NCBI GenBank assembly: GCA_004282745.1
Contig: SHMT01000011.1
Coordinates: 1-64,000 of the forward strand
Source of the DNA: Candidatus Scalindua sp. SCAELEC01
GTDB lineage: Bacteria; Planctomycetota; Brocadiia; Brocadiales; Scalinduaceae
Direction: 5' to 3'
Length of the DNA: 64,000 bases
Of the stretch, positions 12,317-34,801 are shown one piece after another. The position numbers and the translations under genes were made by a program. How positions within the stretch are numbered: the stretch's first letter is position 1; each line of letters opens with the position of its first letter. The notes under the pieces were generated by a model, which saw only the letters and a program-made list of their open reading frames with translations, made no database searches and was not told where the DNA came from.

Positions 12317-13033
12317 ATGATGATTATTGCTAGATATTTCTTGTTTTTAACGGTTTTAAGTGTTGCGTGTTCGGCTACTCTTTTTGCACAAGAGGCTGCT
12401 CCTACTGATGATCAGACAAAGATCATTCAGCAGAAATTGGAAGCGGCATTAAAGTCACTCAAAAAAGAGATAAAGTCAGAAGTTGCGGTTGAAAATGGTG
12501 GTGCTATCACCGGTATTGTAAAATGCAAAAGGGTTAAGCATCCCGACAATGTGGTAGTATATATCGAGAAAGTAGGGGAGAATGCCTATGATGCTCCAGA
12601 GGAACATGGGGTTCTTGACCAGTTGAATTTGACTTTTGTTCCTCATGTAATTGCGGTACAAAAAGGAACAACAATTGATTTTCCAAATAGTGACTCAGTG
12701 CGTCACAACGTCTTTACCCCTCCAGATTGCTGTCGTCAATTCAATCTAGGTACTTATGATGTCGGTGTGGTAAAGAGTGTTACCTTTGAGGAGTCTTGTG
12801 ATGTCCCAATTTTGTGTAACGTGCATGCTGAGATGTCATCCTTTGTGGTCGTGCTTGATAATCCCTACTTTTCTGTAACAGAGAAAGATGGGGTGTATAC
12901 TATTGAAAATGTACCGCCTGGTACATACAAGCTAACCGCATGGCATGAAAAACTCCAGTCGATTACGAGTGATGTTACTGTCGAGGCTGGTAAGACCGTA
13001 AATGTTGATTTTCAATTAAAGAAAAGAAAATAA
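12317..13033 (+). CDS. exported cupredoxin (plastocyanin-like) protein
   Basis: 238 residues with a signal peptide (about 1-24, ending LFAQ). After a linker of about 40 residues a cupredoxin domain spans about 60-175. Its likely blue-copper ligands are His in VRHNVF and the Cys/His/Met set in CNVHAEM. A small CarboxypepD_reg-like beta-sandwich follows (KDGVYTIENVPPGTYKLTAWHE). It is first in the cluster, 9 bases before the Rieske gene, and has a paralogue at 20355. A periplasmic electron carrier for the bc complex is the natural reading. AGGAGAGGG precedes the ATG. Confidence 0.8.
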   Translation: MMIIARYFLFLTVLSVACSATLFAQEAAPTDDQTKIIQQKLEAALKSLKKEIKSEVAVENGGAITGIVKCKRVKHPDNVVVYIEKVGENAYDAPEEHGVLDQLNLTFVPHVIAVQKGTTIDFPNSDSVRHNVFTPPDCCRQFNLGTYDVGVVKSVTFEESCDVPILCNVHAEMSSFVVVLDNPYFSVTEKDGVYTIENVPPGTYKLTAWHEKLQSITSDVTVEAGKTVNVDFQLKKRK

Positions 13034-13045
13034 ACCATTTTTTTG

Positions 13046-13609
13046 ATGGGCGCTAAAATGACACACGAAATGGGAGAAAAAGGGATAGGTGCAGGCTGTG
13101 CAGGGGGGCATGGTGCTCCTGTTGTAAGGAAACCGATAAGTCGTAGAAGGTTTTTTTATCTTCTTGGTTGGGGCTTTATAGCTGCATTTATGACAGCGGT
13201 TCTTGGGGCTATTATACGCTTCTTTTTTCCCCGAGTTTTGTATGAACCGCCTACTCGTTACAAGATAGGGTTTCCATCAGAATATACATTGGGTGTTAGT
13301 GAGAGGTTTAAGAAACAGTTCAGGGTGTGGGTAGTTCGTGAGTCCGACAGGGTATACGTTATTGAGGCAAAATGTACCCACTTGGGCTGTACTCCCAATT
13401 GGTTGGCTGCGGAGGGAAAGTTCAAGTGTCCTTGCCATGGAAGTGGTTTTACTCCTGATGGCATTAATATAGAAGGTCCGGCTCCAAGGCCCTTGGAGCG
13501 GTTCCAGGTTTCAGTAGGCGAAAGTGGCCAGTTAGAAGTCGATGAGGGAATACGGTTTCGCGGTGAAAAAGGAGAGTGGGAGAAACCTGGGGCTTTTGTC
13601 GCTGTTTAG
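13046..13609 (+). CDS. Rieske iron-sulfur protein of the bc complex
   Basis: About 187 residues. SRRRFFYLLGWGFIAAFMTAV is a twin-arginine motif plus the single membrane anchor. The C-terminal domain has CTHLGC and CPCHGSGF, which supply the two Cys and two His ligands of the 2Fe-2S cluster. It accepts electrons from quinol at the outer face. The start is uncertain: a TTG at 13043 directly precedes the ATG used here, and a further ATG lies at 13058; none has a strong SD. It is followed by cytochrome b after a gap of about 160 bases. Confidence 0.93.
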   Translation: MGAKMTHEMGEKGIGAGCAGGHGAPVVRKPISRRRFFYLLGWGFIAAFMTAVLGAIIRFFFPRVLYEPPTRYKIGFPSEYTLGVSERFKKQFRVWVVRESDRVYVIEAKCTHLGCTPNWLAAEGKFKCPCHGSGFTPDGINIEGPAPRPLERFQVSVGESGQLEVDEGIRFRGEKGEWEKPGAFVAV

Positions 13610-13766
13610 CAGGCGGGAGTGGGTGCTGCTGGATAATTAACGGCCTTAAGCGTATTTTTGGATAAGTGTCTTTCGGATCGGATAGCTCGCAGAGAAGGGT
13701 TTTGGTTGTGGCGGTTTGGGTTTTGGTTAGGTATAACTTGGTTGTGTGAGGTCGGGAGGCTTTAAA

Positions 13767-14594
13767 TTGGGAAACAAAAAAGAGAAAGGAAGTATTTTAA
13801 AGATACTTCGATTGATAAGAGAACACGGTGTTGTGAATGTTGTAAAAGATATGACCTTGAACTCTCAGGTTTGGCGTTCGTTTTTTCGTCATGGGCTTGA
13901 GGACACACCCAAAACCAGGATGGAGACAATTATTAATAACTCTTTTCTCCATCTGCATCCTGCTAAAGTTAAGAGGCACGCACCGTTGTTTCGGTTTACC
14001 TGGTGCATGGGTGGAATTACCTTCTTTTTATTTTTGGTTTTGACGATAACGGGTGTTTTTTTAATGTTTTATTACCATCCAAATGTGAGGGACGCTTACT
14101 GGGATATGAAAGGTTTGGAGTATCATGTACCTTTTGGTACGTTGTTGAGGAATTTACATAGATGGGGTGCGCATTTGATGGTTATTGCGGTCTGGTTTCA
14201 TATGTTCCGGGTGTTTATGACGGGCTCTTATAAGCCGCCGCGTGAGTTTAATTGGGTTATTGGAGTGGTATTGTTGGTAATGACGCTTCTTTTGAGTTTT
14301 ACCGGTTACCTACTTCCTTGGGATCAGTTAGGTTTTTGGGCTGTGACTGTTGGTACAAATATGGCGCGTGCTACACCTCTTTTAGGGCATGAAGGTCCTT
14401 TTGGAAATCTGTTAGGTATGACTGCGTATAATGATATACGGTTTGCCTTACTTGGCGGATCTCTCGTGGGTGGTAATGCGTTATTGAGGGCATACATTTG
14501 GCATTGTATTGGACTGCCGATGATTGTAAGTACCTTCTTGATAGTGCATTTCTGGCGAATACGTAAAGATGGTGGTATTTCCGGCAAGTTATAG
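13767..14594 (+). CDS. cytochrome b, N-terminal (b6-like) subunit
   Basis: 275 residues with four core transmembrane helices preceded by a soluble extension of about 75 residues. The bis-histidine pairs are spaced as in cytochrome b6: H-x13-H in [16 protein letters not shown] and H-x14-H in [17 protein letters not shown]. It binds the two b hemes and helps form the quinone sites. The TTG at 13767 is chosen over the GTG at 13746 because GGGAGG (13754-13759) sits seven bases before it. The C-terminal half of cytochrome b is encoded separately at 16574, so this is a split cytochrome b as in b6f-type complexes. Confidence 0.93.
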
Positions 14595-14788: not shown

Positions 14789-16495
14789 TTGAAGTACAGT
14801 GTGGTGGAAGCTGATGAGAAGTGGTTTCAGGAAAATATAAACTGTCAGCACGCATGTCCTGCTCATACGCCAGCCTCGAATTATATTGAAAGGCTACAGG
14901 AGGGAGACTATGCAGGGGCGTTGCAGTTGAATTTTATGGCAAACCTGTTTCCGCATATTCTAGGGCGTGTCTGTACGCACCCTTGTGAGGCCGCTTGTCG
15001 CAGAGGTTCTATTGATAGGCCAGTTGCCATCTGTACGTTAAAACGGGTTGCCGCTGATTATGCAGATCAAAATATTCACCCGGAAAAGCCAAAGAATATA
15101 AAAAGTACCGGGAAAAAAGTAGCGGTTGTCGGGGCTGGTCCATCAGGCCTTGCTGCAGCGAACGATTTAGCACTATTGGGCTACGCGGTAACGGTATTTG
15201 AAGCCCTGCCAATGGCTGGTGGGATGTTGAGTGTTGGTATCCCTCCCTATAGATTACCCTGGCATAAAATCAATAGTGCTGTGAAGTGGATTGAGGATTT
15301 GGGTATTGAAATCAAATTCAATAGTCCGGTGAAAAATGAAGAAGAGCTTGATGCTTTGATAAAGGGCTATGATGCGGTATATTTGGCTGCCGGTGCACAT
15401 AAGTCCCCATCGCTGGATATAGCGGGAGAGGATTTAAATGGTGTTGTGCACGGTATCAAGTTTATGAAAGATCTCAATCTTGGACATCAAAAAAAGGTGC
15501 CTTCAAAAGTGGCGGTTGTCGGTGGTGGGTTTACGGCGATTGACTGCGCACGTTCATCCTTAAGGCTTGGCGCGAAGGAGGCTTCTATTATCTACCGAAG
15601 GACGCTGAAGGAGATGCCGGCCGGAGAGTTAGAAGTTTCTATGGCAGAGGAGGAGGCGATAAAAATACTCTTCTTGACTACGCCCATTAAGATACATGGG
15701 GATAAGGATGGCAATGTCAAGATGATTGAGTGTTTGAAGAACAAGCTTGGTGAGCCTGATAGTAGCGGTAGGAGGAGGCCTGAGCCCATCCAAGGAAGTG
15801 AGTTTACGGTGCCCGTAGATATGGTTGTTGCTGCTATTGGACAATCTGCCGATATGGGGTTTGTTTCAGAGGGTTTAGGGGTAAAGCTAACGAAGTGGGG
15901 ATCTATTGAGGTTAATAGCGAGACATTGATGTCTGATAGAGAGGGGCTATTTGTTGGTGGTGACTATTTGACCGGTCCAAGAAATGTTATAGAGGTCATT
16001 GCTGATGGGAGAAAAGTGGCTAGGGCGATAGATGAGTATCTTGGGGTTGCTCAGAAAAGGGAGATAAGTTATTTTTTTGCGGATAGAGATCCAGTGAGGA
16101 ATCGTGATGATTATGATGCTTTGCCTCGCCAAAAACAGCAGGCGCTCTCTATGGATGTGAGATGGGATGTGGATAAAGAGGTCGAGCTCGGTTTTACGAA
16201 AAGCGATGCCCAAAAGGAGGCAGATCGGTGTTTGCTTTGTCATTATAATATTTTTATCGATGATCAAAAGTGTGTGTTGTGTGGTGGTTGTATCGATATT
16301 TGTCCAAATAACTGCATTATGATGATGTCGCGTGATAAGATCGAATTCGAAGGGGCCATCGAGGGTGAGCTAACAGGTGATTGGGATGCTGTTATGGCCA
16401 TTGATGAAGAGAAATGTATCAGGTGTGGGCTCTGCGTCAGGAGATGTCCGGTTGATGCAATAAAAATGAAAAGGTTCTCATATGCTGAAAAGTAA
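14789..16495 (+). CDS. FAD-dependent NAD(P) oxidoreductase with ferredoxin domains (GltD/NfnB-like)
   Basis: 568 residues, no membrane helix. The N-terminal domain (about 1-100) has the GltD-type cysteines (CQHACPAHTP, CTHPCEAACRRG). VAVVGAGPSGLAAA binds FAD, VAVVGGGFTAIDCAR binds NAD(P), and FVGGDYLTGPRNVIEVIADGR closes the flavoprotein fold. A C-terminal 2[4Fe-4S] ferredoxin module has CVLCGGCIDICP and CIRCGLCVRRCP. It starts at TTG behind GTGGAG. It lies between the two halves of cytochrome b, so it should couple NAD(P)H and the quinone pool or low-potential donors through the bc complex. Direction of electron flow is not visible. Confidence 0.88.
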   Translation: MKYSVVEADEKWFQENINCQHACPAHTPASNYIERLQEGDYAGALQLNFMANLFPHILGRVCTHPCEAACRRGSIDRPVAICTLKRVAADYADQNIHPEKPKNIKSTGKKVAVVGAGPSGLAAANDLALLGYAVTVFEALPMAGGMLSVGIPPYRLPWHKINSAVKWIEDLGIEIKFNSPVKNEEELDALIKGYDAVYLAAGAHKSPSLDIAGEDLNGVVHGIKFMKDLNLGHQKKVPSKVAVVGGGFTAIDCARSSLRLGAKEASIIYRRTLKEMPAGELEVSMAEEEAIKILFLTTPIKIHGDKDGNVKMIECLKNKLGEPDSSGRRRPEPIQGSEFTVPVDMVVAAIGQSADMGFVSEGLGVKLTKWGSIEVNSETLMSDREGLFVGGDYLTGPRNVIEVIADGRKVARAIDEYLGVAQKREISYFFADRDPVRNRDDYDALPRQKQQALSMDVRWDVDKEVELGFTKSDAQKEADRCLLCHYNIFIDDQKCVLCGGCIDICPNNCIMMMSRDKIEFEGAIEGELTGDWDAVMAIDEEKCIRCGLCVRRCPVDAIKMKRFSYAEK

Positions 16496-16573: not shown

Positions 16574-17401
16574 ATGGCGGAAGATAAAGAGACAACTAAG
16601 GGGCGGTATCGCGCGCTAGCGTTTGTTAAAGGAGAATCCCTGGCCAAAGAGAAGGATAGAGAGGTATCGAAGGATGAGGTACATACTTGGCCATATTTAG
16701 TTCGAGTGGAATTTCTTGCTGCTATCATAATGACTATTATTTTGATGGTGTGGGCGATTACGCTTGATGCGCCATTGGAGGATCCATCAGATCCTACATT
16801 GACTCCTAATCCAGCGAAGGCGCCATGGTATTTTCTTGGATTGCAGGAAATGCTTGTGTACTTTGATCCGTGGATAGCTGGTGTTATATATCCGTCTTTT
16901 ATCGTAATAGGATTAATGGTTATTCCTTATGTAGATGTCAATCCAAAGGGCAATGGTTACTACACACTCAAGGAGAGGAAGTTTGCAATTCTTACTTTTT
17001 GTTTTGGCTTTCATGTGCTTTGGATTTTGTTGATTATCGTTGGTGTTTTTATGCGAGGGCCCGGCTGGATCTGGTTTTGGCCGTGGGAAACATGGGATGC
17101 ACACAGAGTTGTAGCTGAGACAAATTATGATCTGACACACTTTATCGGTGTTGATTCGAAATCTTTTCTTGGTTCAGTTATTGGGGGTAGCGTTGTCGTT
17201 CTCTACTATTTCGTGACATTGACCATACCTTATTTATTCTTAAAACTTATTGGTAGCCAAACCCTTGAAAAACTGGGTATCGTTAGGTATGCGATTGTAG
17301 CGTTACTGTTTTGGACTATGATGACGTTGCCAATTAAGATGTTTCTGAAATTGGTTTTTCATATGAAATACATTTGGGTAACTCCTTGGTTTAATATATA
17401 G
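16574..17401 (+). CDS. cytochrome b, C-terminal (subunit IV-like) subunit
   Basis: 275 residues. A charged N-terminus is followed by a membrane helix (about 47-66), then TPNPAKAPWYFLGLQEML, the hallmark of the cytochrome b C-terminal half at the quinol-oxidation loop. Four or five more helices follow, with a WIWFWPWETWDAH loop. It completes the split cytochrome b started at 13767. It is longer than plant subunit IV, with extra helices at the C-terminus. AAGGGG precedes the ATG. Intervening genes suggest the NAD(P) module was inserted between the two b subunits. Confidence 0.88.
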   Translation: MAEDKETTKGRYRALAFVKGESLAKEKDREVSKDEVHTWPYLVRVEFLAAIIMTIILMVWAITLDAPLEDPSDPTLTPNPAKAPWYFLGLQEMLVYFDPWIAGVIYPSFIVIGLMVIPYVDVNPKGNGYYTLKERKFAILTFCFGFHVLWILLIIVGVFMRGPGWIWFWPWETWDAHRVVAETNYDLTHFIGVDSKSFLGSVIGGSVVVLYYFVTLTIPYLFLKLIGSQTLEKLGIVRYAIVALLFWTMMTLPIKMFLKLVFHMKYIWVTPWFNI

Positions 17402-17432: not shown

Positions 17433-20276
17433 ATGAAAAAACTAGAAGAAAAATCATATGTAGGTAGGTATGTTCTGTTAAGTTTCATTCTTTTTTTGAC
17501 GATGCTCGGTGCTATATGGAATGAATTGATTATAAAAAGGCCTTGGAAATTCTTTCAATCACGTTTTCATGAGCTCGAAATTGAGAATGCCAACGCTCGC
17601 TATGAACAGGCTGTTGAGAAACTTAAGGAGCCCGGTGTTCAGAAAGAGTATGTCTCTCTTAAAACGAAGTTGAAAGATGCAGAGGATAATTTTGAGAGGG
17701 ATATTATTCAAGTTGAGTATCAAAAGGTTCTCAGGGAGTTGGAAACACTTGATAAAGAAGAGTTGGAACCCCTAAAATTTGAAGCAATTATTACGCGAAA
17801 TAAGCTTCAAGAGGTGGCCTATAAATACGGTACGGATAAATCCGATAAGATCGCAGAGACCATTCAGAATTTAGAAGAGCGAAATAGTGAGTTGGCTGTT
17901 AGCATTAATGAGGTGCAAGGTAGAAGAGAAGTGCTTCAAGATAGGGTTGATGCATTTAGGAGTAAGATTACGGCTTACGAAAAAGAGCTAAAGGCCTTTA
18001 CGGCCGAGGTGGATGGATATAAAAAATCTGTCGATGCTCTTAAGGCAAAACGCCCAGGTTTACAGCTCTATCAGGTCAATCTTGAGGCTATTAATGAGGT
18101 TGATAGGTGTATGTCTTGTCACCCAGGAATAAACAAACGTGAAAGTGTATCGGATGAACAACCCTATGCAAGTCATCCGAGGAGAGATGTGTATCTCGGT
18201 AATCATCCGCCTGATAAATTTGGATGTGTCTTATGCCATGAGGGGCAAGCAAGGGCTACAACAAACCCCGAAAAAGCGCATGGAGAAGTCGAGTTTTGGT
18301 TGAGACCGATGCTTAAGGGTGAGATGGTGCAATCGTCCTGTATCACCTGCCATTCAAACGTAATCGGACTTGAGGGAGCTGAGAAAATTTCTGAGGGGCT
18401 ACAACTATTTGATGAATTAGGCTGTTTTGGGTGTCATCAAACAAAGGGTTTTGGTGAGGATAAATTTACGATGATCGGCCCTAGTTTAAAGGAAATAGGC
18501 AGCAAGGTGAATCCGGTATGGCTGCAAAAATGGTTGATGGGCCCTAAAAATTACAGACCATCATCACGAATGCCGGACTTCATTTTAGAAGATGCCGATG
18601 CAAAGGCCATTGCCTCGTATCTCTGGCAAAACTCCGAAGTATTTGATCCTGGAGAAGTTGAGGAATTCGATGATGAAACGATAGACGAGGGTGCGTATCT
18701 TTTTGAAAGTGCCGGTTGTCTAGCCTGTCATAGTGATCTGGAGGAAGATGGCAAGGTGCATGGGCCAAATCTGGCGAGGATAGGTGAAAAGGTCAACTAT
18801 GAATATATGGTTAGTTGGTTATTAGATCCAAAATCACATCAACCGATGACTTCCATGCCGAACCTTCAGCTCAATGATGAGAAAGCTCGATATCTTGCGG
18901 CATACTTGACAACCCTTACCAGTGAAACGTTTGAGGTTTCAGATGAGGACACTGAGTGGGTTACTGATGAAGAACTGGCTGAAGAGGGTAAAAGCTTAAT
19001 TGGAAGATATGGATGTTTTGGTTGTCATGAAATAAGAGGGATGGAGGAGAGGGGAAAAATCGGGGTTGAATTATCTGAGGTGGGTTCTAAACACGTCCAC
19101 CTTTTTGATTTCGGATTGAAGGAACATGAGATGCTTCACGAGATTGGTATTAAACATCCAACGGAAAATGTGGCGGCAACAAGACGGTCGTGGATAGAGG
19201 CGAAATTGACCGATCCGAGACAATTTGATGAAGGAAAATACAAGAAACCATCAGATAGATTAAGGATGCCCGATTTCGGACTGACGAAAGATGAGGTTGA
19301 GGCTGTTACCGCTGTCTTGCTGGGTATGAGGGAAGGTGAAATGCCGGAAGAGTACCGTTTTCAAAATTCGGAAGTCCAGCAGTCTATTTTTGAAGGAAAG
19401 AGAATCGTTAATAAATACAACTGTACCGGTTGTCATCAGTTCAGCATTGATACTTTGTATTTAAATGATGGGACCGTGTTGAAGGGTATGGTAAAACTGG
19501 AGGAGGAAGATACTCTCTTCTTCCAGCTCTGGGAGGATAATGATGATTTTGGGAGAGGTGCAGGTGAAACAGCGCAGATTCAGACCTCGCAAATTAAGGA
19601 TCGTGTTTATGCTGAGGGGGGTGATATCGGCACTTTCATCATAGATTATCACGTAGAGGTTGAAGGTCGTATGTCAGAAGAGGCAAAGGTTTTTACCCCT
19701 CCTGTACTCTATCAAGAGGGAAGAAAAGTTCAAAGCAACTGGGTATTCGATTTTCTTGAAGAGCCAATTGTCCTGCGTCCATGGCTTGATGTTCATATGC
19801 CAATGTATAAAATGCCATCTGAAGAGGCGACTTCACTGACACGTTATTTTGCTGTATTAGAAGGTGAAGAGTATCCATATGAGTTTATCAAAGAGACAAA
19901 AAGTAGTTACATAGCAGAAAAGGAAGAGGAGTGCCCTGGATACTTAGCGGATGCAATGAAGTTGTTTGATTCAAAGGACGTCAATTGCGCGTCTTGTCAT
20001 GTGAGGGGTTCTATAACGCCTGATGGGGAACCATCGAGTTGGGCTCCTGATCTCTCTTTGGCGAAGAAGAGATTAAAGCCCGATTGGATCAAGAGGTGGT
20101 TGATGGATCCGCAAATTATCCAACCCGGTACCAAAATGCCGAAGCTATTCAGGGAAGGGGAATATCAAGATATATTTCCTGGAGATCCTGATGAGCAGGC
20201 TGAGGCCATAAAAGATCTTTTAATGAACTTTCCCGATGAGAATGTAGGTGGTGGGGAAGAGATGTCTGAAGAGTAG
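17433..20276 (+). CDS. membrane-anchored octaheme c-type cytochrome
   Basis: 947 residues. One N-terminal membrane helix (about 11-30) is followed by a coiled coil of about 170 residues (about 40-205). The rest holds eight CxxCH motifs (CMSCH, CVLCH, CITCH, CFGCH, CLACH, CFGCH, CTGCH, CASCH). Several lie in cytochrome-c domains that end with distal methionine motifs such as SRMPDF, TSMPNL and LRMPDF. It should face the periplasm or anammoxosome lumen and replace cytochrome c1/f as the electron outlet of the bc complex. The coiled coil may set the distance from the membrane. AAGGGA lies upstream. Such a fusion is not a standard bc1 subunit. Confidence 0.85.
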   Translation: MKKLEEKSYVGRYVLLSFILFLTMLGAIWNELIIKRPWKFFQSRFHELEIENANARYEQAVEKLKEPGVQKEYVSLKTKLKDAEDNFERDIIQVEYQKVLRELETLDKEELEPLKFEAIITRNKLQEVAYKYGTDKSDKIAETIQNLEERNSELAVSINEVQGRREVLQDRVDAFRSKITAYEKELKAFTAEVDGYKKSVDALKAKRPGLQLYQVNLEAINEVDRCMSCHPGINKRESVSDEQPYASHPRRDVYLGNHPPDKFGCVLCHEGQARATTNPEKAHGEVEFWLRPMLKGEMVQSSCITCHSNVIGLEGAEKISEGLQLFDELGCFGCHQTKGFGEDKFTMIGPSLKEIGSKVNPVWLQKWLMGPKNYRPSSRMPDFILEDADAKAIASYLWQNSEVFDPGEVEEFDDETIDEGAYLFESAGCLACHSDLEEDGKVHGPNLARIGEKVNYEYMVSWLLDPKSHQPMTSMPNLQLNDEKARYLAAYLTTLTSETFEVSDEDTEWVTDEELAEEGKSLIGRYGCFGCHEIRGMEERGKIGVELSEVGSKHVHLFDFGLKEHEMLHEIGIKHPTENVAATRRSWIEAKLTDPRQFDEGKYKKPSDRLRMPDFGLTKDEVEAVTAVLLGMREGEMPEEYRFQNSEVQQSIFEGKRIVNKYNCTGCHQFSIDTLYLNDGTVLKGMVKLEEEDTLFFQLWEDNDDFGRGAGETAQIQTSQIKDRVYAEGGDIGTFIIDYHVEVEGRMSEEAKVFTPPVLYQEGRKVQSNWVFDFLEEPIVLRPWLDVHMPMYKMPSEEATSLTRYFAVLEGEEYPYEFIKETKSSYIAEKEEECPGYLADAMKLFDSKDVNCASCHVRGSITPDGEPSSWAPDLSLAKKRLKPDWIKRWLMDPQIIQPGTKMPKLFREGEYQDIFPGDPDEQAEAIKDLLMNFPDENVGGGEEMSEE

Positions 20277-21265: not shown

Positions 21266-23221
21266 TTGAATACTATAAGAAATCTTATAAAAGTGAATAG
21301 CTTTAAAATCTTCTTTTCATTACTGGTTATACTTGTCCTGCAGGGCTTTGTATCCCAGGTTGTTGAGGCACAAGAGAGCAGTGAGCTGGTACAATACCGT
21401 AACTTTTTTGGAATAGATGCTCGGTTGGTTGTATGGATAGTGTCTGAATTGCATTTGATGTTTGCCGCTTTTGTACTTGGTGTGCCGATGTTTGCCGTAA
21501 CGGTAGAAATTATTGGTGTAAAGTCCGGAGATATTAGATTTGATAACTTAGCTCGTGAGTTTACGAAGCTGTTGTCGGCAGCCTTTGCCACTACTGCAGC
21601 ATTGGGTGGATTACTCTCTTTCTGTTTGTATGGCATGTATCCTGGTTTTATGCGTTACATGACGGACGTGTTTCATCCCATAATGTTCGTATATGCGTTG
21701 CTGTTCTTCGCTGAGGCGTTCTGCTTATACGGTTATTACTATTCGTGGGATATTTTGAAAGAGAAGGGAAAGTGGTTTCATATATTTCTCGGGATTATGC
21801 TAAACGTCTTTGGTACGACCTTAATGTTTCTGGCAAATTCCTGGGCTACATTTATGATGTCGCCTGATGGGATAGATCTTGAAACAGGTGCTGTTACCAG
21901 TCTGCGGGCAGCCTTTGACAATTTTCTCTGGATGCCTGTTAACCTACATCGCTTGATAGCCAATGTTGCTTTTGGTGGTTTTGTTGTGGGTGCTTATGCT
22001 GCGGTGAAATTTATGGGCTCTAAAAGTGATGATGACAAAGCCCATTATGATTGGATGGGCTATATCGGAAACTTTATTGGTTTAGCGGCTCTTATACCTT
22101 TGCCATTTGCTGGCTATTACTTGGGTCGTGAGATTTACAGCTCCAGTCCGGTGATGGGCAATATTATGATGGGGGGTGCGTTCTCTTGGACATTCATTAT
22201 CCAGGCGATTCTTATCGGTATGCTCTTTATCGGTGGGAATTACTATTTGTGGAATGGGATGGATAGGATCGAAGGTGCTGAACGCTATCGTAAATATATC
22301 CCATTTATTAACATAATAATTTTCTTCTGCTTTGCGGTGTGGTTGACTCCACACAATCTTCCTTTGAGTGGTGAAGAGCGAGCGCTGATTGGAGAGCAAT
22401 ATCACCCATTCTCTAAATTTTTTGGAGTCATGGCTGCAAAGAATGCAGTTGTTAACCTGTTGATTCTCTCTACATTTTTCAGCTTTCTTATTTATCGCAG
22501 AGCGAATAAAGGTGAGATTGTCAAGTTTTCACAACATGGTAATTCTGCTCGTATTGCACTCATTATAACTGCTGGATTAACTATTTTGTATTTGGTTTGG
22601 TATGCTATGGGCCTTCGAGGAGTAGAATTGGAGGCAAACATAAAACAGTATATTTCGCCTCTGATTCTCTGTATAGCAATACAAATAGTTGCCATTGTGG
22701 TTACCATTCTCATGACATTTGCTAATAAGGGAAAGGCCGCACAAATACTTCTCCTATTCGTTACTGTACTCATTGCAGTAGTCTATTTGGCCTATTATGG
22801 CTTTGTCGTTATGGAGAAGGCAAATATGGTTTTGCGCTTTTTGTCTGTAACACAGGTGTCTGTGGTAATCAGTTGTTTGATTGTGAATGCCGTTATTGAT
22901 GTCTTTTTGTTCAAAAATGCTAAAGAGGTCGGTAAGATACGTTGGGGGAAGATCCCGCTTCGTTCACAATATGCCCTGCTCTTGCTCTGCGTAGCGATAG
23001 TGACGCTGATGGGTCTTATGGGATTCATCCGTTCTGGACTTCGAATGAACTGGCATATTTACGGTTATATGCAGGATACTTCACCAGGTGCATTTACTCC
23101 CAGTATTTCATACATGGGATTAGCAACTGCCTTAGTGGTTGTTCTGTTCCTGGCACTTGTCTCCTTTGTTTTTTGGCTGGCTGGACTTGGAGAAAAGAAG
23201 AAAAGTAGTAGTAATGCTTAA
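21266..23221 (+). CDS. CydA-like (cytochrome bd subunit I family) membrane protein
   Basis: 651 residues with about 14 membrane helices after an N-terminal hydrophobic segment that may be a signal. ELHLMFAAFVLGVPMF aligns with the helix carrying the b595 histidine of CydA, and NLHRLIANVAFGGF with the b558 histidine. Only the second of the two conserved glutamates (ALLFFAEAFCLYG) is kept, and WHIYGYMQDTSPGAF matches the CydA C-terminal WVVYGVLRT-type box. No CydB gene is present. It is probably a heme-bearing quinol-interacting subunit, but O2 or NO reduction is not assured. The TTG start lies behind AGGTAAAG. Confidence 0.75.
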   Translation: MNTIRNLIKVNSFKIFFSLLVILVLQGFVSQVVEAQESSELVQYRNFFGIDARLVVWIVSELHLMFAAFVLGVPMFAVTVEIIGVKSGDIRFDNLAREFTKLLSAAFATTAALGGLLSFCLYGMYPGFMRYMTDVFHPIMFVYALLFFAEAFCLYGYYYSWDILKEKGKWFHIFLGIMLNVFGTTLMFLANSWATFMMSPDGIDLETGAVTSLRAAFDNFLWMPVNLHRLIANVAFGGFVVGAYAAVKFMGSKSDDDKAHYDWMGYIGNFIGLAALIPLPFAGYYLGREIYSSSPVMGNIMMGGAFSWTFIIQAILIGMLFIGGNYYLWNGMDRIEGAERYRKYIPFINIIIFFCFAVWLTPHNLPLSGEERALIGEQYHPFSKFFGVMAAKNAVVNLLILSTFFSFLIYRRANKGEIVKFSQHGNSARIALIITAGLTILYLVWYAMGLRGVELEANIKQYISPLILCIAIQIVAIVVTILMTFANKGKAAQILLLFVTVLIAVVYLAYYGFVVMEKANMVLRFLSVTQVSVVISCLIVNAVIDVFLFKNAKEVGKIRWGKIPLRSQYALLLLCVAIVTLMGLMGFIRSGLRMNWHIYGYMQDTSPGAFTPSISYMGLATALVVVLFLALVSFVFWLAGLGEKKKSSSNA

Positions 23222-23340: not shown

Positions 23341-24288
23341 ATGGGAAGTTTCGGTAAAGCTATAATATTTTCGTTACTGATATTGGGGTTTTTTGTATAT
23401 GTATGTTATTATGTAACTGGTCTTTCTGGCGGTTCCGGTGGTAGCGGTGCCAAGGGTGTTAATCCTGAAGCAGGAGAGGAAATTTACTGGGGTGAAGGTC
23501 AATGTAGTACCTGTCATAGTATTGGTACTTCTGGTAGTGCTACCAGAGGTCCGAATCAGGAAGGTCTTGCTGCTCGAGCTGAAGAGAGAGCGAAAGAGCG
23601 TGGTTTGACCAGTGGTCTTGAATACCTTATTGAGTCCATTGTTAATCCTGGTGAATATGTTGTCGATGGTTTTGATAACATTATGCCAAAAGTTTACGAC
23701 GCTCCGATCCTTTTAGATCGTGAACAGATAATGGCTGTTATTTCGTATTTGCAAACATTGGGTGGTGAAGCAGACATTGTTGCGATTAATAAACTCAAGG
23801 ATAAAATACCTGAGGCTTCAAAGAAAAAGGTTGAACCGTGGGTGCCGCCGATAGTAGTTGATGCTTCTGTAGGAGAGCAGATCTTTTTCGATGAAAAACG
23901 GGAAGTAACCTGCTCAAAATGCCACACTGTTAATGGAAAAGGTGCAAAGGTTGGTCCAGATTTGACAGGTATAGGTGCTGTTCAAACGCCTCAATATCTC
24001 ATAGAATCTATCTTGCAACCGAGTCAGGTTATCATCAAAGGGTTTGAGACTATGTATCTTATAGGCACTGATGGCATGGCATATACTGGGATATTACAGA
24101 GTCAGACGGACGAGGAGACGGTATTGCTGGTTGATGAAGAGGGTGAGATGGTTGAATATGTTTTTTATCCTGAAGAGATCGAGCAGATGCAAAAGCAGGA
24201 TGTTTCGATTATGCCGGGTAATTTTAGCGAGATGTTGACAACCTATGAATTCTATGGGATTGTTTCGTATCTTTTGAGTTTAAAATAG
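23341..24288 (+). CDS. membrane-anchored diheme cytochrome c
   Basis: 315 residues. An N-terminal helix (about 5-26) acts as anchor or signal, then a Gly/Ser-rich linker, then two cytochrome c domains with CSTCH and CSKCH. Candidate distal methionines are in NIMPKVY and SIMPGNF. The second domain has the KVGPDLTGIG pattern of small class-I cytochromes plus an inserted beta segment (GFETMYLIGTDGMAYTG) seen in planctomycete cytochromes. It follows the CydA-like gene by 120 bases and could feed it. Confidence 0.82.
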   Translation: MGSFGKAIIFSLLILGFFVYVCYYVTGLSGGSGGSGAKGVNPEAGEEIYWGEGQCSTCHSIGTSGSATRGPNQEGLAARAEERAKERGLTSGLEYLIESIVNPGEYVVDGFDNIMPKVYDAPILLDREQIMAVISYLQTLGGEADIVAINKLKDKIPEASKKKVEPWVPPIVVDASVGEQIFFDEKREVTCSKCHTVNGKGAKVGPDLTGIGAVQTPQYLIESILQPSQVIIKGFETMYLIGTDGMAYTGILQSQTDEETVLLVDEEGEMVEYVFYPEEIEQMQKQDVSIMPGNFSEMLTTYEFYGIVSYLLSLK

Positions 24289-24334
24289 TATTTGTTTTCA
24301 ATATTAAGTGCTTATATTTGAGGGAAATGAGAGA

Positions 24335-25105
24335 ATGAGAAAAAAGAAACATTCATATTCGATGATATGGGCTATATTCTCGATACTTATTGTTTTTGGT
24401 ATTATAAAATATGCATCTCCTTATGCGTTCATGATTTTGCTCGGTAAAGACCACACAATGCCAACACCAAGTACCCTAATGTTGTGGTACATGATTTTGG
24501 GTGTTTTAGGAGCGCTTGTTTATGTCTCGACAAGTGATCTGAAGTGGGCAAATTTTCTCAGTTTTATGCTTCCGGGTGAGGATGACCGAACTAAGAAATT
24601 GTTACAGAAGATTATCGTTTTAGCTTTACCTTTATTGTTAGGTTGGTTTGTTTATTCAGGTACTGTTCCTGGGACTGCATCTCCTGTAGAGCTGAGGATC
24701 CAACATCCTACACTTTTGCAAAAATATGAAAATATGGAGAATCCTTTTGCTCATGTATCGGAGGAGTTAAAGGAAAAGTACACCGAAGAGGGGAAACATC
24801 TCTACCAGCAAAACTGTCGTCCGTGTCACGGTTCTAAAGCTGATGGCAATGGTCCTTTTGCAAATTCATTTAGATTACGACCTATTAATTTTACTGATCC
24901 GGGTACTATCGGGACTGTAGTAGAAAGTTTCGTATTTTGGCGTATCATGGAAGGTGGTCCAGGTCTTCCTGATGGATCAACACCATGGGATTCAGCTATG
25001 CCATCTTGGGAAGATACATTAACTGATGAACAAGTTTGGAAAATAATTATGGGTGAATATGCTACCGCTGGAGTAGTGCCACGCCAAAGAGAAGAAGCTG
25101 AATAG
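24335..25105 (+). CDS. membrane-bound monoheme cytochrome c
   Basis: 256 residues. Three membrane segments (about 8-28, 47-66 and 85-102) are followed by one cytochrome c domain with CRPCHGSKADGNGPFA and a distal region around AMPSWEDTLTDEQVW. The ATG at 24335 is favoured over 24308 because GAGGGA/TGAGAG precedes it. The arrangement of membrane helices plus periplasmic heme resembles cytochrome subunits that dock on oxidases. It is in the same operon as its neighbours. Confidence 0.8.
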   Translation: MRKKKHSYSMIWAIFSILIVFGIIKYASPYAFMILLGKDHTMPTPSTLMLWYMILGVLGALVYVSTSDLKWANFLSFMLPGEDDRTKKLLQKIIVLALPLLLGWFVYSGTVPGTASPVELRIQHPTLLQKYENMENPFAHVSEELKEKYTEEGKHLYQQNCRPCHGSKADGNGPFANSFRLRPINFTDPGTIGTVVESFVFWRIMEGGPGLPDGSTPWDSAMPSWEDTLTDEQVWKIIMGEYATAGVVPRQREEAE

Positions 25106-25181
25106 ATACTCTCATGATTTAATTAAGAATTAAAACACGATTATCATTGAAACGTTAATAATTATCAAATTGAAAACTGCG

Positions 25182-26942
25182 ATGGACATGAAAAAAGATA
25201 AAAAGATTAGTTTTTTTCAGATTACTTGGTGCCTTTGCGTACTTGTGGTAACCTGTGCAATCTGTACACAATCTGGGTACGCACAAACGTCTCAGATATT
25301 CAGGAATTATAGCAGCGTTGTTCCCGGGAAAATTCCTGAAAACCAAGATGCAATTTCTGCTGGAAAGAAAATATACGAAAAACATTGTTACTACTGCCAT
25401 GGAATTAAAGGTGATGGCAATGGATCAGATGCATTGAGATTAAATCCAAAACCTCGGAATTTTACTAGAAATGAGTACAAAATACGATCGACTTTACTTG
25501 GTGAATTACCTACGGATGAAGATCTATTTAGAATTATATCGAGTGGTATTGAGGGCACTGCAATGCCATTTTGGAATTCCTTGACAATTAATGAGAGATG
25601 GCAGGTTGTTTATTATATTAAAACGTTTAATAAAGAGTTTGAAAATTCAAAAAATCCCGAATCATCAAGCGTAGCGAACGTTATTCCCGAAAGTCCAGAA
25701 TCAATAAAAATTGGGAGCGAGCTTTTCAAAGATGCAAAATGCGTTAACTGTCACGGTGAAGATGGAAGAGCTGACGGTAAAATAACTACTACGTTAGAAG
25801 GAGTTTGGGATCTTCCGTATAGAGCTAGAAATTTAACTAAAAGTTGGCTATTTAAAGGTGGTCATACTTCGTCTGACATTCATAGAACATTGACAACCGG
25901 TTTTAATGAATCTCCAATGGGTTCATATGCTGAATATCTTTCTCATGAAGATCGCTGGCATTTGGCTCATTATGTAAAATCTATTTCAAAAACTATGGAT
26001 ACTGATGTTGTTCTGTTATCATATATTGTAGAGACTGATCTTCCAACTGGTCCCGATGATCCTATTTGGGAGTCGATAAGTTCAATTGAAATTCCGTTAG
26101 CCGGTCAAATTATTGCGAAACCAAGGCTCTGGATGCCTTCAGTTAATTCGATACAGGTCAAATCATTTTTTTCTGATAATTACATAGTATTTTTATTAGA
26201 GTGGGATGATAAAACAAACGAGCAAAACGAAACCTATAGTGATGCTGTTGCAATACAATTTCCTACTGTTATTCCCGAAAGTTCGGAAAAACCATACTTT
26301 GCCATGGGAGGTTCTGGAAAGGGTGTTACTATCTGGCAATGGAGGGCTTATGACGAAGTACAGGAACTCGCCAAAAAGGAATTAGGTCAAGTAGATGATT
26401 CTGTAACCGCTACAGATGGTGGGAGTAGTGTGGACTCTGATGAAGAGTCTTCGGATGACGAAGGAGAGGTTGCTCCCGATAAAATCGAAGAAGCTTCTGA
26501 ATCTGAACAAACTGAAGGGGTAGTTGAAGAAGCGAGGCCTCTATTCACTAATTTTGCAAAAATGAGAGAGATGAATGCAAAAGGTTTTAAGAACGTTTCT
26601 GTTCAACCCTCTAAGAGTCAACTCACAAAGAGTCTTGGAGTTTGGAAGAATGGTAAATGGAAAGTGATGGTTACGAGCCCAATTGTAACAAATGAAAAGA
26701 AACTTGATATTCAGTTTGAAGATGGAAAGCTGATTCCCTATGCTCTTGCGGTATGGGATGGATCAAATCAAGAAATTGGTGGACTTAAATCAATTTCATC
26801 CTGGTATTATTTGAATTTAGAAAAAGTGATACCAAATAGCGTCTATTTTTATGTTATTATAGCAATTATTATTGGAACAAGTATTCAATTTTGGGTTATT
26901 GGAAGAGTTCGACGATTTCCCCCTAAGGTTAATGAAGAATAA
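25182..26942 (+). CDS. diheme cytochrome c fused to an ethylbenzene-dehydrogenase-like heme-b domain
   Basis: About 586 residues. A signal peptide ends near SGYAQ, and two cytochrome c domains follow (CYYCHGIKGDGNG and CVNCHGEDGRADG). From about 280 a domain starts DPIWESISSIEIPLAGQ and runs to a KGVTIWQW region, interrupted by an acidic insert. This resembles the heme-b-binding gamma subunit of ethylbenzene dehydrogenase and nitrite oxidoreductase. A C-terminal membrane helix (SVYFYVIIAIIIGTSIQFW) anchors it. The true start could be TTG 25170, ATG 25182 or ATG 25188. Its 3' end overlaps the next gene by 11 bases. Confidence 0.78.
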   Translation: MDMKKDKKISFFQITWCLCVLVVTCAICTQSGYAQTSQIFRNYSSVVPGKIPENQDAISAGKKIYEKHCYYCHGIKGDGNGSDALRLNPKPRNFTRNEYKIRSTLLGELPTDEDLFRIISSGIEGTAMPFWNSLTINERWQVVYYIKTFNKEFENSKNPESSSVANVIPESPESIKIGSELFKDAKCVNCHGEDGRADGKITTTLEGVWDLPYRARNLTKSWLFKGGHTSSDIHRTLTTGFNESPMGSYAEYLSHEDRWHLAHYVKSISKTMDTDVVLLSYIVETDLPTGPDDPIWESISSIEIPLAGQIIAKPRLWMPSVNSIQVKSFFSDNYIVFLLEWDDKTNEQNETYSDAVAIQFPTVIPESSEKPYFAMGGSGKGVTIWQWRAYDEVQELAKKELGQVDDSVTATDGGSSVDSDEESSDDEGEVAPDKIEEASESEQTEGVVEEARPLFTNFAKMREMNAKGFKNVSVQPSKSQLTKSLGVWKNGKWKVMVTSPIVTNEKKLDIQFEDGKLIPYALAVWDGSNQEIGGLKSISSWYYLNLEKVIPNSVYFYVIIAIIIGTSIQFWVIGRVRRFPPKVNEE

Positions 26943-28440
26943 AAAAATGAAAATAATTAATTTAATGATAAGAAATTTTTTACTTATTGTACCATTAGTC
27001 CTTCTCGTTTTTTCATTTAGTGGTATTACAACAACTTCAATTATTGCTGAAACTCATAAGGAGCAACAGTATTATCTGGAAATAGAGGAGCAATATAATG
27101 GTAAAGAAGAGTTTAGGGAGCTGCCTATTGAATTGGAAAATCCTTATAAACGTTCAAAGAATGGACCAGATCTGAAGAATGTCGTTCACAAGGCAAACAA
27201 AGAGTGGTTAAAGAAATGGATCGATAACCCTGAATCTATGATACCGAATGCCCGAATGCCACGGCTTATGTTAAGTGAGTCTGATATTGACGCGGTCTTG
27301 GCTTACTTGTCTAGTATTGCTGATAGTGATATTCCTCGTCAGAAGTGGGATGAGTATCTTATGAAAAATGAAGATGACATGACTGATGATGAATATGATA
27401 ACATGAGTGAATTAAGTGATAAGGGTAAGGCTGTATGGGGAAGGGCACGGTGTAATTTGTGTCATCCGGTTAAAGGCAAGGGTGGTGCTGTAGATGTGGG
27501 TCCAGATCTTGGTAGATTAGTAGAAAAAGTAAATCGTGATTGGCTTTTTTTGTGGATTAAAGAGCCAAAAAGCTATTTTCACAGCACTCAAATGCCACGG
27601 TATCGTTTTAGTGATCAAGAGGTTCGTCAATTGGTTGAATTTCTCATGCAATCTTATGATTTCAAACCCGAAGAAGATGATGGTGAATCTGATCAAGACG
27701 TATCAGGTGACGAGCTAGAGAATGTTGGAACTGAAGTAGAAACTGTTGAGAAAACATCGGTTTCATCGCTTCTCCCTGAAGGTTCATTAATTGAGAAGGG
27801 TAAAAGGATTATTGAACTGAACAGATGCTTTATCTGTCATAACATCGAGGGTGTGTCCGATCTGTTGCCAATTGAAGTCGCAAAAGATGAACCAGAGGAG
27901 AGTTTTGCCAATTTGTTGAATGATGTGCGGTGCATGACCTGTCATACCATACAGGGTGAAGGTGGTTTGTTTGCACCGGAATTGACTCATGAAGGAAGCA
28001 AGCTTAAAAGAGAGTGGATAAAGGGGTTTTTACAAAAACCTGACATTATACGACCTCTTTTAAAGCAAATGCCAAAGTTCAATATAACTGAGGATGAAGC
28101 AGAAAAGGCGGTAACTTTTATCGAAGAATACTTCATCAACGAAGACATTCCTGTTGAAAAATATGCTGATAGCAAACCATCTGAAGAAGAAATTGCTAAA
28201 GGTAAGGAGTTTTATGATGTAAAAGGATGTAGAAGTTGTCATGCAATAAGCGAGGGAGGGATTGTTGGGCCGACCTTAAAAAGGGTGGGTGATAGATTAG
28301 AAAACGGATTTATCTTTTATCATTTAAAGAATCCTCATTTGGAGATCCCTGATGGAATTGAACCAAATTACCAACTTTCCGACGAAGAAGCCCTTGCGAT
28401 TACCCATTATCTTATGTCATGTAAAGATGCTGAAAAATAA
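26932..28440 (+). CDS. tetraheme cytochrome c with an extra heme-less domain
   Basis: 502 residues. After a signal or anchor helix, an N-terminal domain (about 50-125; NGPDLKNVVHKANKEWLKKW, NARMPRLMLSESDID) has the cytochrome c helices and distal methionine pattern but no CxxCH. Four true motifs follow: CNLCH, CFICH, CMTCH and CRSCH. The start overlaps the preceding gene by 11 bases (the ATG at 26947 is an alternative), so the two are translationally linked. A donor or acceptor in the periplasmic heme chain is likely. Confidence 0.8.
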   Translation: MKNKKMKIINLMIRNFLLIVPLVLLVFSFSGITTTSIIAETHKEQQYYLEIEEQYNGKEEFRELPIELENPYKRSKNGPDLKNVVHKANKEWLKKWIDNPESMIPNARMPRLMLSESDIDAVLAYLSSIADSDIPRQKWDEYLMKNEDDMTDDEYDNMSELSDKGKAVWGRARCNLCHPVKGKGGAVDVGPDLGRLVEKVNRDWLFLWIKEPKSYFHSTQMPRYRFSDQEVRQLVEFLMQSYDFKPEEDDGESDQDVSGDELENVGTEVETVEKTSVSSLLPEGSLIEKGKRIIELNRCFICHNIEGVSDLLPIEVAKDEPEESFANLLNDVRCMTCHTIQGEGGLFAPELTHEGSKLKREWIKGFLQKPDIIRPLLKQMPKFNITEDEAEKAVTFIEEYFINEDIPVEKYADSKPSEEEIAKGKEFYDVKGCRSCHAISEGGIVGPTLKRVGDRLENGFIFYHLKNPHLEIPDGIEPNYQLSDEEALAITHYLMSCKDAEK

Positions 28441-28464: not shown

Positions 28465-29103
28465 ATGAGAAATTTTATACTTACAACTACCCTAAAATCT
28501 TTTTTTGTCTTGGCTTCACTATTTCTTGTTTCGAATTTTTTCCTTCGAATCGTATCCTGTGAAGAAGAAGTTTCTGAAGTCCCTGTTGCTGAGGTGGCTG
28601 ATGCTAATAAAAAAATAACGTTACTCGAAGAGCATAAGAGTTATTTAGCTACTTCCAAAAATACGTTTCTCTATTACTGTGCACCTTGCCATGGTGATAA
28701 AGGGAACGGTAAAGGGATCTACTTTACCATTGATCTTGAACCGAAACCTACGGATCTTACGCATGTTGAATATATGGCTAAGTTGACAGATGATTACCTG
28801 ATAAATTGGATAAAGAGTGGTTCCTCTTCTATGGGAAAATCGGATTTGTGTCCACCCTGGGGAGGAACATTTGATGAAGAGAGGATTAAAGGGGTAATTG
28901 GCTATCTAAGATCCTTGACTATTGAAAAACAGGGCGATATTGCCAGTACAGAGGGTGATACTCTTGTTGCTCAATCTTCGGTATCAAATGGTGCACCTGA
29001 ATTCATTAAATGGGGAGTCTTAATACTACTCTGTCTTATATTTATGTTTGCTGCCCGTAATGAGTGGAAAAAACTAAAGGCTGAAAAAGGATCTGAATCG
29101 TAG
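28465..29103 (+). CDS. monoheme cytochrome c with C-terminal membrane anchor
   Basis: 212 residues: N-terminal signal (about 1-31), a cytochrome c domain with CAPCHGDKGNGKG and the ligand region SSSMGKSDLCPPWGG, and a C-terminal helix (about 178-195, WGVLILLCLIFMFAA) followed by a basic cytoplasmic end. It lies 24 bases after the tetraheme gene. A probable terminator follows, so the main transcript may end here. Confidence 0.8.
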   Translation: MRNFILTTTLKSFFVLASLFLVSNFFLRIVSCEEEVSEVPVAEVADANKKITLLEEHKSYLATSKNTFLYYCAPCHGDKGNGKGIYFTIDLEPKPTDLTHVEYMAKLTDDYLINWIKSGSSSMGKSDLCPPWGGTFDEERIKGVIGYLRSLTIEKQGDIASTEGDTLVAQSSVSNGAPEFIKWGVLILLCLIFMFAARNEWKKLKAEKGSES

Positions 29104-29173: not shown

Positions 29174-30424
29174 TTGTTTAAACAAGTATTTATTCCTATA
29201 GATAATTCTAAATTCTCTGATTATTGTACGGACTTTGGAATTTCATTAGCAAAAAAGTTTGACTCTGAAATTATTGGTGGCCATGTTTATGCTGCTAATT
29301 TGCATCACAAGCGATTTAAAGAGATGGAAAGCGGTTTGCCAGAGCAGTACCGTAACGAAAAGGAGTTAATAAAGCAGAGGGAATTTCATAACACTCTGAT
29401 TGGTCGTGGCTTGCGGATGATTTCCGATTCATACCTTGATAGTCTTGAAAAGAAATGTGAGCAAAACCAGATCCTTTTTAAGAGAAATTTGCAGGAAGGT
29501 AAAAATTATATTGAACTCGTAAATCAGATTGTTAAGAATCAGTACGAGTTAGTAATTATTGGTGTTAGAGGCCTTGGAGAAGTATGTGACAAGGTGATTG
29601 GCAGTGTGTGTGAGAGGGTAGTAAGAAGGATTAATTCAGATGTTCTAATCGTTAAGAACGATCGTCCGTTAGCAGGAGATGTTTTGGTGGCTGTTGATGG
29701 AAGTGAACAGTCGTTCAGATCTGTTGATATCGTTTGCCAATTAGCAAAAAATTATGAGATAGACATCGACGTTGTATCTGTTTATGATCCCCATTTTCAT
29801 AGGGTTGCATTTGATGGTATAGCAAAAGTAATATCAGGTGAGATGGAGAATGTCTTTAAATCTGAGGAGCAGGAAGAGCTTCACGACAATGTAATCGATA
29901 AAGGTTTAGAGAAAATATATCATGACCATTTACAGGTTGCTATTAAGAAGACCAAAGGGTATGGAGTAGATGTTAAGACTACGCTTCTGGAAGGAAAATC
30001 TTATGATCAAGTTTTAAAATATGTTGATAAAGTTAAACCTTCACTTTTAGTTGTTGGGCGAACAGGGATTCACTCAAACAAGGGGTTGGATCTTGGAAGT
30101 GCAACGGAAAATATTTTACGCTTTGCCGATTGTAATGTGCTTATTACCAAAGATATAATGGTTAATAGCGAAAATCCTTTTTTTGAAAACATGGTTGTAG
30201 AAACAAGTATTGAAAGAAATGTAAAGGTCTCTTCTCAAGTTGAAGAGATTACGTGGAATGACGAGGCGAATGCATTGATTTCAAAAGTTCCAGCCTTTGT
30301 GAGAGAGATGGTTAAAAAAGAAGTAGAAACTTATGCACACCAAAATGGTAAGTCTGTGATTACCCAAGAAGTGGTAGAGGAAACAAAAGCTAAATGGTCA
30401 AATGCTATGAACATGTCGCAATGA
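29174..30424 (+). CDS. tandem universal-stress protein with C-terminal PCP_red domain
   Basis: 416 residues, soluble. Two UspA folds: the first begins FKQVFIPIDNSKFSDYCTDFG and ends with VIIGVRGLGE...SDVLIVKNDRP; the second runs from DVLVAVDGSEQSFRS to VVGRTGIHSNKGLDLGSATENILRFADCNVLIT. The second carries the more typical nucleotide-site glycines. From about 360 follows a 50-residue PCP_red domain (WNDEANALISKVPAFVREMV). The TTG start is set by the Usp alignment; no SD was found. The same domain occurs twice in the radical-SAM protein at the other edge of this cluster, which suggests a shared partner or ligand. Confidence 0.82.
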   Translation: MFKQVFIPIDNSKFSDYCTDFGISLAKKFDSEIIGGHVYAANLHHKRFKEMESGLPEQYRNEKELIKQREFHNTLIGRGLRMISDSYLDSLEKKCEQNQILFKRNLQEGKNYIELVNQIVKNQYELVIIGVRGLGEVCDKVIGSVCERVVRRINSDVLIVKNDRPLAGDVLVAVDGSEQSFRSVDIVCQLAKNYEIDIDVVSVYDPHFHRVAFDGIAKVISGEMENVFKSEEQEELHDNVIDKGLEKIYHDHLQVAIKKTKGYGVDVKTTLLEGKSYDQVLKYVDKVKPSLLVVGRTGIHSNKGLDLGSATENILRFADCNVLITKDIMVNSENPFFENMVVETSIERNVKVSSQVEEITWNDEANALISKVPAFVREMVKKEVETYAHQNGKSVITQEVVEETKAKWSNAMNMSQ

Positions 30425-34563: not shown

Positions 34564-34801
34564 TAGCACGTAGCTCCTTCCAGATGGCCCCAACCTGAAT
34601 GACTAAGTCAGGAAATTGAACGCATGCGGTTACTTGCCACATTTACGCTACAATAACTCAGACGGGTTATGGTGTATGTGCACTTCTTAGATTTACCTCG
34701 CAGATTGGTCAACTATACTATATACTTAAAATTTCTGCTTAATCAAATGCTATTGAAAATTTGTACTGGAGTCAAGTATTTTATATGCGTAAAATGGTAT
34801 T

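Follow-up and report, generated by a model that had tools for sequence, protein, structure and literature searches.

The gene at the centre of this analysis occupies positions 21266-23221 (+) of the window, i.e., the whole 64,000-nucleotide stretch of Candidatus Scalindua DNA that was analysed, and is an open frame of 651 amino acids beginning with a TTG start codon. It lies among the following genes:

12317..13033, + strand, copper-protein-like gene, preceding the Rieske gene
13043..13609, + strand, Rieske protein of the Kustd1480 type (PDB match 9rk3)
13746..14594, + strand, cytochrome b6-like protein (domain search)
14789..16495, + strand, NAD(P) oxidoreductase with Fe-S domains (domain search)
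16574..17401, + strand, subunit IV-like cytochrome b C-terminal part (domain search)
17433..20276, + strand, octaheme cytochrome c, 947 aa
20355..21125, + strand, copper-protein-like gene with a CarboxypepD_reg domain, just upstream of the CydA-like gene, in the kustd1713 position
21266..23221, + strand, CydA-like membrane protein of the kustd1712 type, 651 aa (frame, Pfam, model and alignment)
23341..24288, + strand, membrane-anchored diheme cytochrome c, Kustd1711 ortholog, 315 aa (match to PDB 7zs0), directly downstream of the CydA-like gene
24308..25105, + strand, monoheme cytochrome c of the conserved cassette
25170..26942, + strand, NxrC-like protein with an EB_dh (ethylbenzene dehydrogenase gamma-like) domain and two CxxCH motifs (domain search)
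26872..28440, + strand, tetraheme cytochrome c; the listed ORF overlaps the previous one and its true start is probably further in
28465..29103, + strand, monoheme cytochrome c of the conserved cassette
29174..30424, + strand, universal stress protein with a PCP_red domain, the last gene of the conserved cassette

The order copper protein, CydA-like protein, diheme cytochrome c, monoheme cytochrome c, NxrC-like protein, tetraheme cytochrome c, monoheme cytochrome c and universal stress protein constitutes a cassette that recurs across Brocadiales. By the published gene table, it corresponds in Kuenenia to the order from kustd1713 down to kustd1706, the latter being uspA (PMC6423088), and kustd1713 is a blue copper protein (PMC11897245). 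The products of kustd1705-1712 were found at 84-99.5% in the Kuenenia membrane fraction (PMC11897245), and Kustd1705 has been produced in Shewanella oneidensis (PMC8387239). In the window, the cassette follows upon the genes for the Rieske protein, the cytochrome b6-like protein, the NAD(P) oxidoreductase, subunit IV and the octaheme cytochrome c. The Rieske protein matched 9rk3 (Kustd1480) with an E-value of 1.7e-66, as against 3e-21 for 9rk4 (Kuste4569), and the octaheme cytochrome c gave no match in a PDB search; an Rfam scan of the window also returned no match. Rieske/b genes were likewise found beside the CydA-like gene at L035/L066, L048, L041, L045, L046 and L197, the last in a genome reached through a Planctomycetota groundwater record; at L037, the octaheme cytochrome c is the only one of the Rieske-side genes. 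At L048 (genome G010), where the Rieske/b genes precede the CydA-like gene, the listed frames include no octaheme cytochrome c in the interval from subunit IV to the copper protein. Three genomes from families f3/f4 contain the cassette as a tandem duplicate with diverged CydA-like copies (L044, L045 and L046). In Scalindua profunda, the mono- and diheme genes have been placed on a contig other than that of nxr (PMC3655542). A literature search covering mainly open-access papers yielded none containing both kustd1480 and kustd1709, kustd1711 or kustd1700.

Other features of the window were observed alongside. The PCP_red domain (PF08369) is present in two unrelated proteins located ∼20 kb apart, a radical SAM/SPASM protein (9969-11711, -) and the universal stress protein (29174-30424, +). 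The gene at 59354-61363 (-) combines Ammonium_transp, HisKA_2 and HATPase_c domains and encodes an ammonium transporter–histidine kinase fusion, likely an ammonium sensor, and the gene at 33091-34593 (-) encodes a 500-aa secreted-looking protein with three similar repeats.

The Pfam domain Cyt_bd_oxida_I (PF01654) covers residues 52-296 of the CydA-like protein with an E-value of 8.9e-23, better than the curated cut-off, and a genome-wide profile search showed this gene to be the sole PF01654 match in its own genome (G000; 4.59 Mb, 98.6% complete). No NCBIfam model scored above its cut-off for the protein. An AlphaFold2 model based on a 32-sequence alignment (mean pLDDT 82.9, pTM 0.84) was matched by VIA-align 2 to ten cytochrome bd subunit I entries with Z scores of 31.4-34.6, the best being the CydA chains 7ose_A and 6rx4_A (Z 34.6, rmsd 3.5 over 352-353 residues). 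The next matches were far lower, i.e., the alternative complex III entries 6btm_F (Z 22.5) and 6lod_C (Z 19.0), followed by polysulfide reductase 2vpw_C (Z 15.6). Both the domain and the fold are in agreement with the CydA-like identity claimed in an earlier sequence-only reading, which had named structure prediction against cytochrome bd as a check. The layout of the protein comprises an N-terminal signal-like stretch, six core helices, extra helices replacing the Q-loop, a TM7-like helix (389-412), further extra helices and TM8/TM9-like helices. The region after TM6 is thus predicted to consist of membrane helices, and the Q-loop with its quinol-binding residues is absent. Judged from sequence and model, the product is a CydA-fold membrane protein and not a quinol oxidase subunit.

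H19, E107, K252, E257, R448 and W451 are E. coli CydA residues with roles in the canonical enzyme. The heme ligands of E. coli CydA are His186/Met393 at b558, Glu445 at b595 and Glu99 at heme d (PMC6853902). Profile-profile alignment (hhalign) placed H19 at H63, E99 at Tyr143, E107 at E150, H186 at H228, E445 at Ser590, R448 at R593 and W451 at W596. The b558-type (H228) and H19-type (H63) histidines could therefore be aligned, as stated earlier. The sequence-only reading had also held that only the second of two conserved glutamates is kept, the first being replaced by valine. The retention of the second (E150) and the loss of the first were borne out, and the replacement had to be revised to tyrosine (Tyr143); a Geobacillus phmmer alignment also places the lost first Glu on Tyr143. 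If the E. coli spacing is applied on the N-terminal side of E150, the lost Glu falls on Val142; the register was corrected because E. coli CydA carries a one-residue insertion, Leu101, in the E99 helix (PMC6853902).

Of 129 homologous frames, the 82 that were unique and not contained in another one served for counting conservation, comprising 76 of a first type (the default label for every sequence outside six named sister-type proteins) and 6 of the sister type; only the sequences covering each column were used, and the set leans strongly to Brocadiales. Position 63 is His in 74/74 sequences (68 first type and 6 sister type), 143 is Tyr in 76/76 (70 and 6), 150 is Glu in 75/76 (69 and 6), 228 is His in 80/80 (74 and 6) and 389 is Met in 80/80 (74 and 6). 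Ser590 is Ser in all the 74 first-type sequences covering it, and the same column of the sister type contains Glu in 5/6 and Ser in 1/6. The presence of Glu in five of the six sister-type sequences supports the register that equates E445 with Ser590, a site which MAFFT gaps in another way than hhalign. According to this alignment, the loss of the E445-type Glu, overlooked in the sequence-only reading, is a second heme-ligand loss besides that of E99, and recognisable ligands would remain for at most two of the three bd hemes. H597 is not favoured as a stand-in for the lost E445 ligand, as the sister type carries both. H380, which is His in 74/74 first-type and Pro in 6/6 sister-type sequences, may be put forward as a candidate compensating ligand.

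The equivalent of M393 was approached through topology. Direct alignment with canonical CydA placed M393 at S532 (MAFFT) or near M516 (hhalign). Since the sister-type proteins are devoid of the residues corresponding to ∼415-555 of the window protein, and the helix starting at M389 runs in them directly into the TM8-like helix, M389 is the likely M393 equivalent. The model of a sister-type member (465 aa, pLDDT 84.0; CydA match with Z 31.4) showed the same order around the M389 helix. Topology and conservation together suggest that M389 is probably the sixth ligand of the b558-type heme. The retained ligands and the proton-path Glu (E150) argue for a working heme site.

The absence of a CydB partner, also part of the sequence-only reading, was confirmed at both levels: CydB (PF02322) had no match in the gene cluster or in the window's genome (98.6% complete), and the same search was positive in 10 of 14 control genomes. 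Among 49 Brocadiales genomes with the CydA-like gene, cydB was present in one (G019), where it adjoins a separate canonical cydA, which rules out a strict co-occurrence of the two genes. Overall, CydB was found in 2 of 59 relatives, G019 and G033, the latter without a CydA-like gene. NXR loci led to 22 genomes, 18 of them with the CydA-like gene; CydB was detected in 2 of the 22, both among these 18. An O2-tolerance study of anammox bacteria lists E. coli cydA and cydB without an anammox match (PMC10156729), which agrees with the absence of a canonical bd oxidase.

The diheme cytochrome c encoded directly downstream matched PDB 7zs0 with an E-value of 2.5e-137, and the name and length of this entry suggest that it is Kustd1711. 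Unique copies of the CydA-like gene (82) were examined for this neighbour, of which 6 end too soon to score. Diheme cytochrome c adjoins or is fused to 73 of the 76 testable copies, 67 having it downstream and 6 in the same frame, and the other 3 lack it by the rule applied; as a control, it was found beside 31 of 334 other genes of at least 300 aa in the same loci. Of the three copies scored without it, two (L188 and L192) are accompanied by a homolog with a single CxxCH motif, and the third (L116) has an overlapping diheme frame. The linkage spans several phyla. The fusions are of two forms. One is a clade of 844-880 aa paralogs in Brocadiales, the C-terminal part of which finds its best match among the window cluster proteins in the diheme cytochrome c (E 1.4e-25 to 7.6e-29). 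The other occurs in Scalindua-family genes, where a CydA-like part (79% identical) and a diheme cytochrome c part (77% identical) share one frame, namely L007 and the contig-end fragment L049. No CydA-diheme c fusion was found in the literature search of mainly open-access papers. On the strength of gene linkage, the adjacent diheme cytochrome c is the partner of the CydA-like protein, and this fits the proposal of the sequence-only reading that the protein works with the adjacent cytochromes instead of CydB. The hemes of the Kustd1711-type diheme cytochrome c in Kuenenia lie at ∼+350 mV (PMC11791136). Electron entry from such a cytochrome and the loss of the Q-loop to membrane helices argue against the quinol-oxidising role that had also been suggested. 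A quinol oxidase identity was dropped with the absence of both the Q-loop and CydB.

The relation of the CydA-like gene to nitrite oxidoreductase varies with the family. NxrA and NxrB of the window's genome are located on contig 9 and not on the contig of the window, and this rules out the window copy as part of an NXR cluster; the NxrB is 86-92% identical to that of Scalindua and neighbouring records atop the match list, in keeping with a Scalindua-type anammox bacterium. Among Brocadiaceae with both genes, the CydA-like gene is 9.4-11.5 kb from nxrB in 20 of 24 genomes and on a separate contig in 4. The two genes are on one contig in 0 of 14 genomes of the window's family and in 0 of 3 of families f3/f4, and 8 of the 49 genomes with the CydA-like gene showed no NxrB at E 1e-100. 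All nine genomes of family f2 (G017, G020, G023, G025, G027, G029, G031, G033 and G035) are without the CydA-like gene; an NxrB-like gene is present in seven of the nine, with a best match of 617-637 bits, the corresponding values elsewhere being 817-965 bits in f1, f3 and f5 and 628-646 bits in f4. The linkage with NXR is therefore not universal. Outside Planctomycetota, MAGs of Poribacteria, Chloroflexi, Burkholderiales and Alphaproteobacteria contain the CydA-like gene in company with diheme cytochrome c, monoheme cytochrome c and NxrA/NxrB. Taking all NxrB loci together, 26 of 80 contain such a gene inside the fetched stretch.

The best reading, which we put forward as tentative and a little short of an even chance, is that of a putative cytochrome-c-fed, CydB-free bd relative serving as a high-potential electron outlet. 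Electrons would pass between the membrane-anchored diheme cytochrome c on the lumen/periplasm side and a low-spin heme b at H228/M389, and from there would arrive at a heme that is ligated by H63 and faces Tyr143. The H63 heme would be the place where a small oxidant is reduced, in the simplest case O2, with protons arriving past E150. Neither the quinol site nor a Glu445-type ligand for the second high-spin heme is retained. In the window's family, the unit would be built into the Kustd1480-type Rieske/cytochrome b/NAD(P) oxidoreductase operon as its high-potential outlet, and in the Brocadia family it would belong to the nitrite oxidoreductase cluster. This reading starts from the predicted fold, the aligned ligands, the absence of both CydB and the second ligand, the linkage and fusion with diheme cytochrome c and the operon context, and it presumes the heme content, the electron direction, the oxidant and the assembly of the operon products into one complex. 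An operon shared with the Rieske genes does not by itself imply a shared complex. The alignment offers a counterpoint, in that neither of the glutamates normally found near the high-spin hemes is present. Anammox bacteria live anaerobically, and the window's genome also encodes a cbb3-type oxidase and a qNOR-like protein. Given the anaerobic habit and the cbb3-type oxidase, a role with O2 is not required. When Kuenenia was fed NO in place of nitrite, transcript levels of kustd1712 decreased 5.2-fold, along with a decrease in the rest of the nxr cluster, and the protein was undetected (PMC6423088); the fall in transcript speaks weakly against NO as the oxidant.

By its sequence, the CydA-like protein probably belongs to the bd-like family of nitrite oxidisers, OR-N, as it shows the absence of the quinol site and the cytochrome c linkage by which this family has been described (PMC10839748). 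The Nitrospinota paper names two subunits, OR-N1 and OR-N2 (PMC10839748), which may correspond to the first type and the sister type; the Nitrospinota/Nitrospirota homologs were entered in our tree without OR-N labels. The sister type formed one clade with 100/100 support in this tree, in which long branches were flagged and several row placements are unsure. The six genomes in which it was found (four of Nitrospinota, one of Nitrospirota and one of Chloroflexi) all encode the first type as well. In one Nitrospinota sister-type protein (L182, 3786-5948, -), the first core helix is followed by a long additional hydrophobic insertion. CydAA' oxidases of OR-N1 and OR-N2 have been proposed for Nitrospinota and Nitrospirales (PMC10839748, PMC12342949). 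The window protein could accordingly be one half of a true O2 reductase, the complete active site being retained in a second CydA-like subunit and the two together forming a cytochrome c oxidase. In favour of such a pair, four Nitrospinota genomes and one Chloroflexi genome encode, beside the first type, a second type in which the E445 position is Glu, but the Nitrospirota copy has Ser at this position and all six second-type proteins have Tyr, not Glu, at the E99 position. Among the matches listed, the sister-type profile (A5) found no separate gene in Brocadiales, its matches being the same ORFs as the first type, and in the window's genome the second-type profile matches are the same frame, so that no second CydA-type subunit was found there. 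As NC10 and proteobacterial NXR genomes also gave the first type only, the first type exists without the second, among the matches listed, and we regard the paired oxidase as unlikely for the window protein. If such subunits are O2 reductases, the change from E445 to Ser means that the second heme site comes from the other subunit or is dispensable, and the natural CydA-diheme c fusion provides a single polypeptide for testing the O2-reductase proposal.

For the homolog in the NXR cluster, the authors of the Nitrospina genome paper (PMC3578206) suggested reverse electron transport, in which electrons of nitrite arriving via cytochrome c are pushed to quinone as in alternative complex III. The resemblance of the model to the alternative complex III subunits 6btm_F (Z 22.5) and 6lod_C (Z 19.0) and the distance of 9-11 kb from nxrB in 20/24 Brocadiaceae genomes are consistent with it. 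However, this resemblance may reflect shared architecture only, the protein has no recognisable quinone site, and the window copy is not near NXR (0/14 in its family), which together leave this proposal rather improbable. A heme-binding membrane anchor that docks cytochromes without catalysis would suit the loss of the E99- and E445-type residues and of CydB, but is very improbable, as the ligand His, Met and proton-path Glu show little or no variation across several phyla, a degree of conservation that simple docking would not require.

The preferred reading of a high-potential outlet can be carried further for the window's family, into a proposal that we consider a long shot. The CydA-like protein would supply the high-potential half that the NAD(P)H-generating Rieske/cytochrome b complex of the Kustd1480 type has been lacking: a high-potential electron would travel via the octaheme and diheme cytochromes c and be spent at the single H63/Tyr143 heme on a nitrogen oxide or trace O2, making quinol bifurcation to NAD(P)+ favourable. 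If true, this would be a bd-fold enzyme operating without CydB, a quinol site or a di-heme active site. According to the paper on the Rieske proteins (PMC12954380), no favourable partner reaction has been proposed so far for the Kustd1480-1485 complex, and the shared operon of the window offers a concrete candidate partner for a complex of this type in anammox NAD(P)H production. The protein itself was already named in Kuenenia, and a bd-like description exists for nitrite oxidisers (PMC3578206). The present analysis adds the loss of E445 to Ser relative to the sister type, the near-universal diheme cytochrome c linkage with its fusions, and the joining of the cassette to a Rieske operon of the Kustd1480 type.

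Comparison with known systems places the window gene closest to the nxr cluster kustd1699-1713 of Kuenenia stuttgartiensis, where kustd1712 is annotated as 'cydA, similar to subunit 1 of alternative cytochrome bd quinol oxidase' (PMC6423088). By the same cassette order and the kustd1711 match, the window gene is the counterpart of kustd1712, and complete Brocadiaceae copies are 69-71% identical to the window protein. The cassette of kustd1712 lies beside the nxr genes, whereas that of the window continues a Rieske/cytochrome b/NAD(P) operon. The OR-N proteins of Nitrospinota/Nitrospirales (CydAA') are similar in full-length homology, cytochrome c neighbours and absence of the quinol site, and differ in the second CydA-type subunit proposed for them, which was not found in the window's genome among the matches listed. 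Canonical CydAB shares with the CydA-like protein the fold and the H19, H186, E107, R448 and W451 positions; in contrast to it, the CydA-like protein is without CydB and the Q-loop, has Tyr for E99 and Ser for E445, and contains extra helices. The Kustd1480-1485 complex likewise comprises a Rieske protein, an NAD(P) oxidoreductase, subunit IV and a large multiheme cytochrome c (PMC12954380). Its gene numbers in Kuenenia are far from that of the CydA-like gene, whereas in the window both are present in one cluster.
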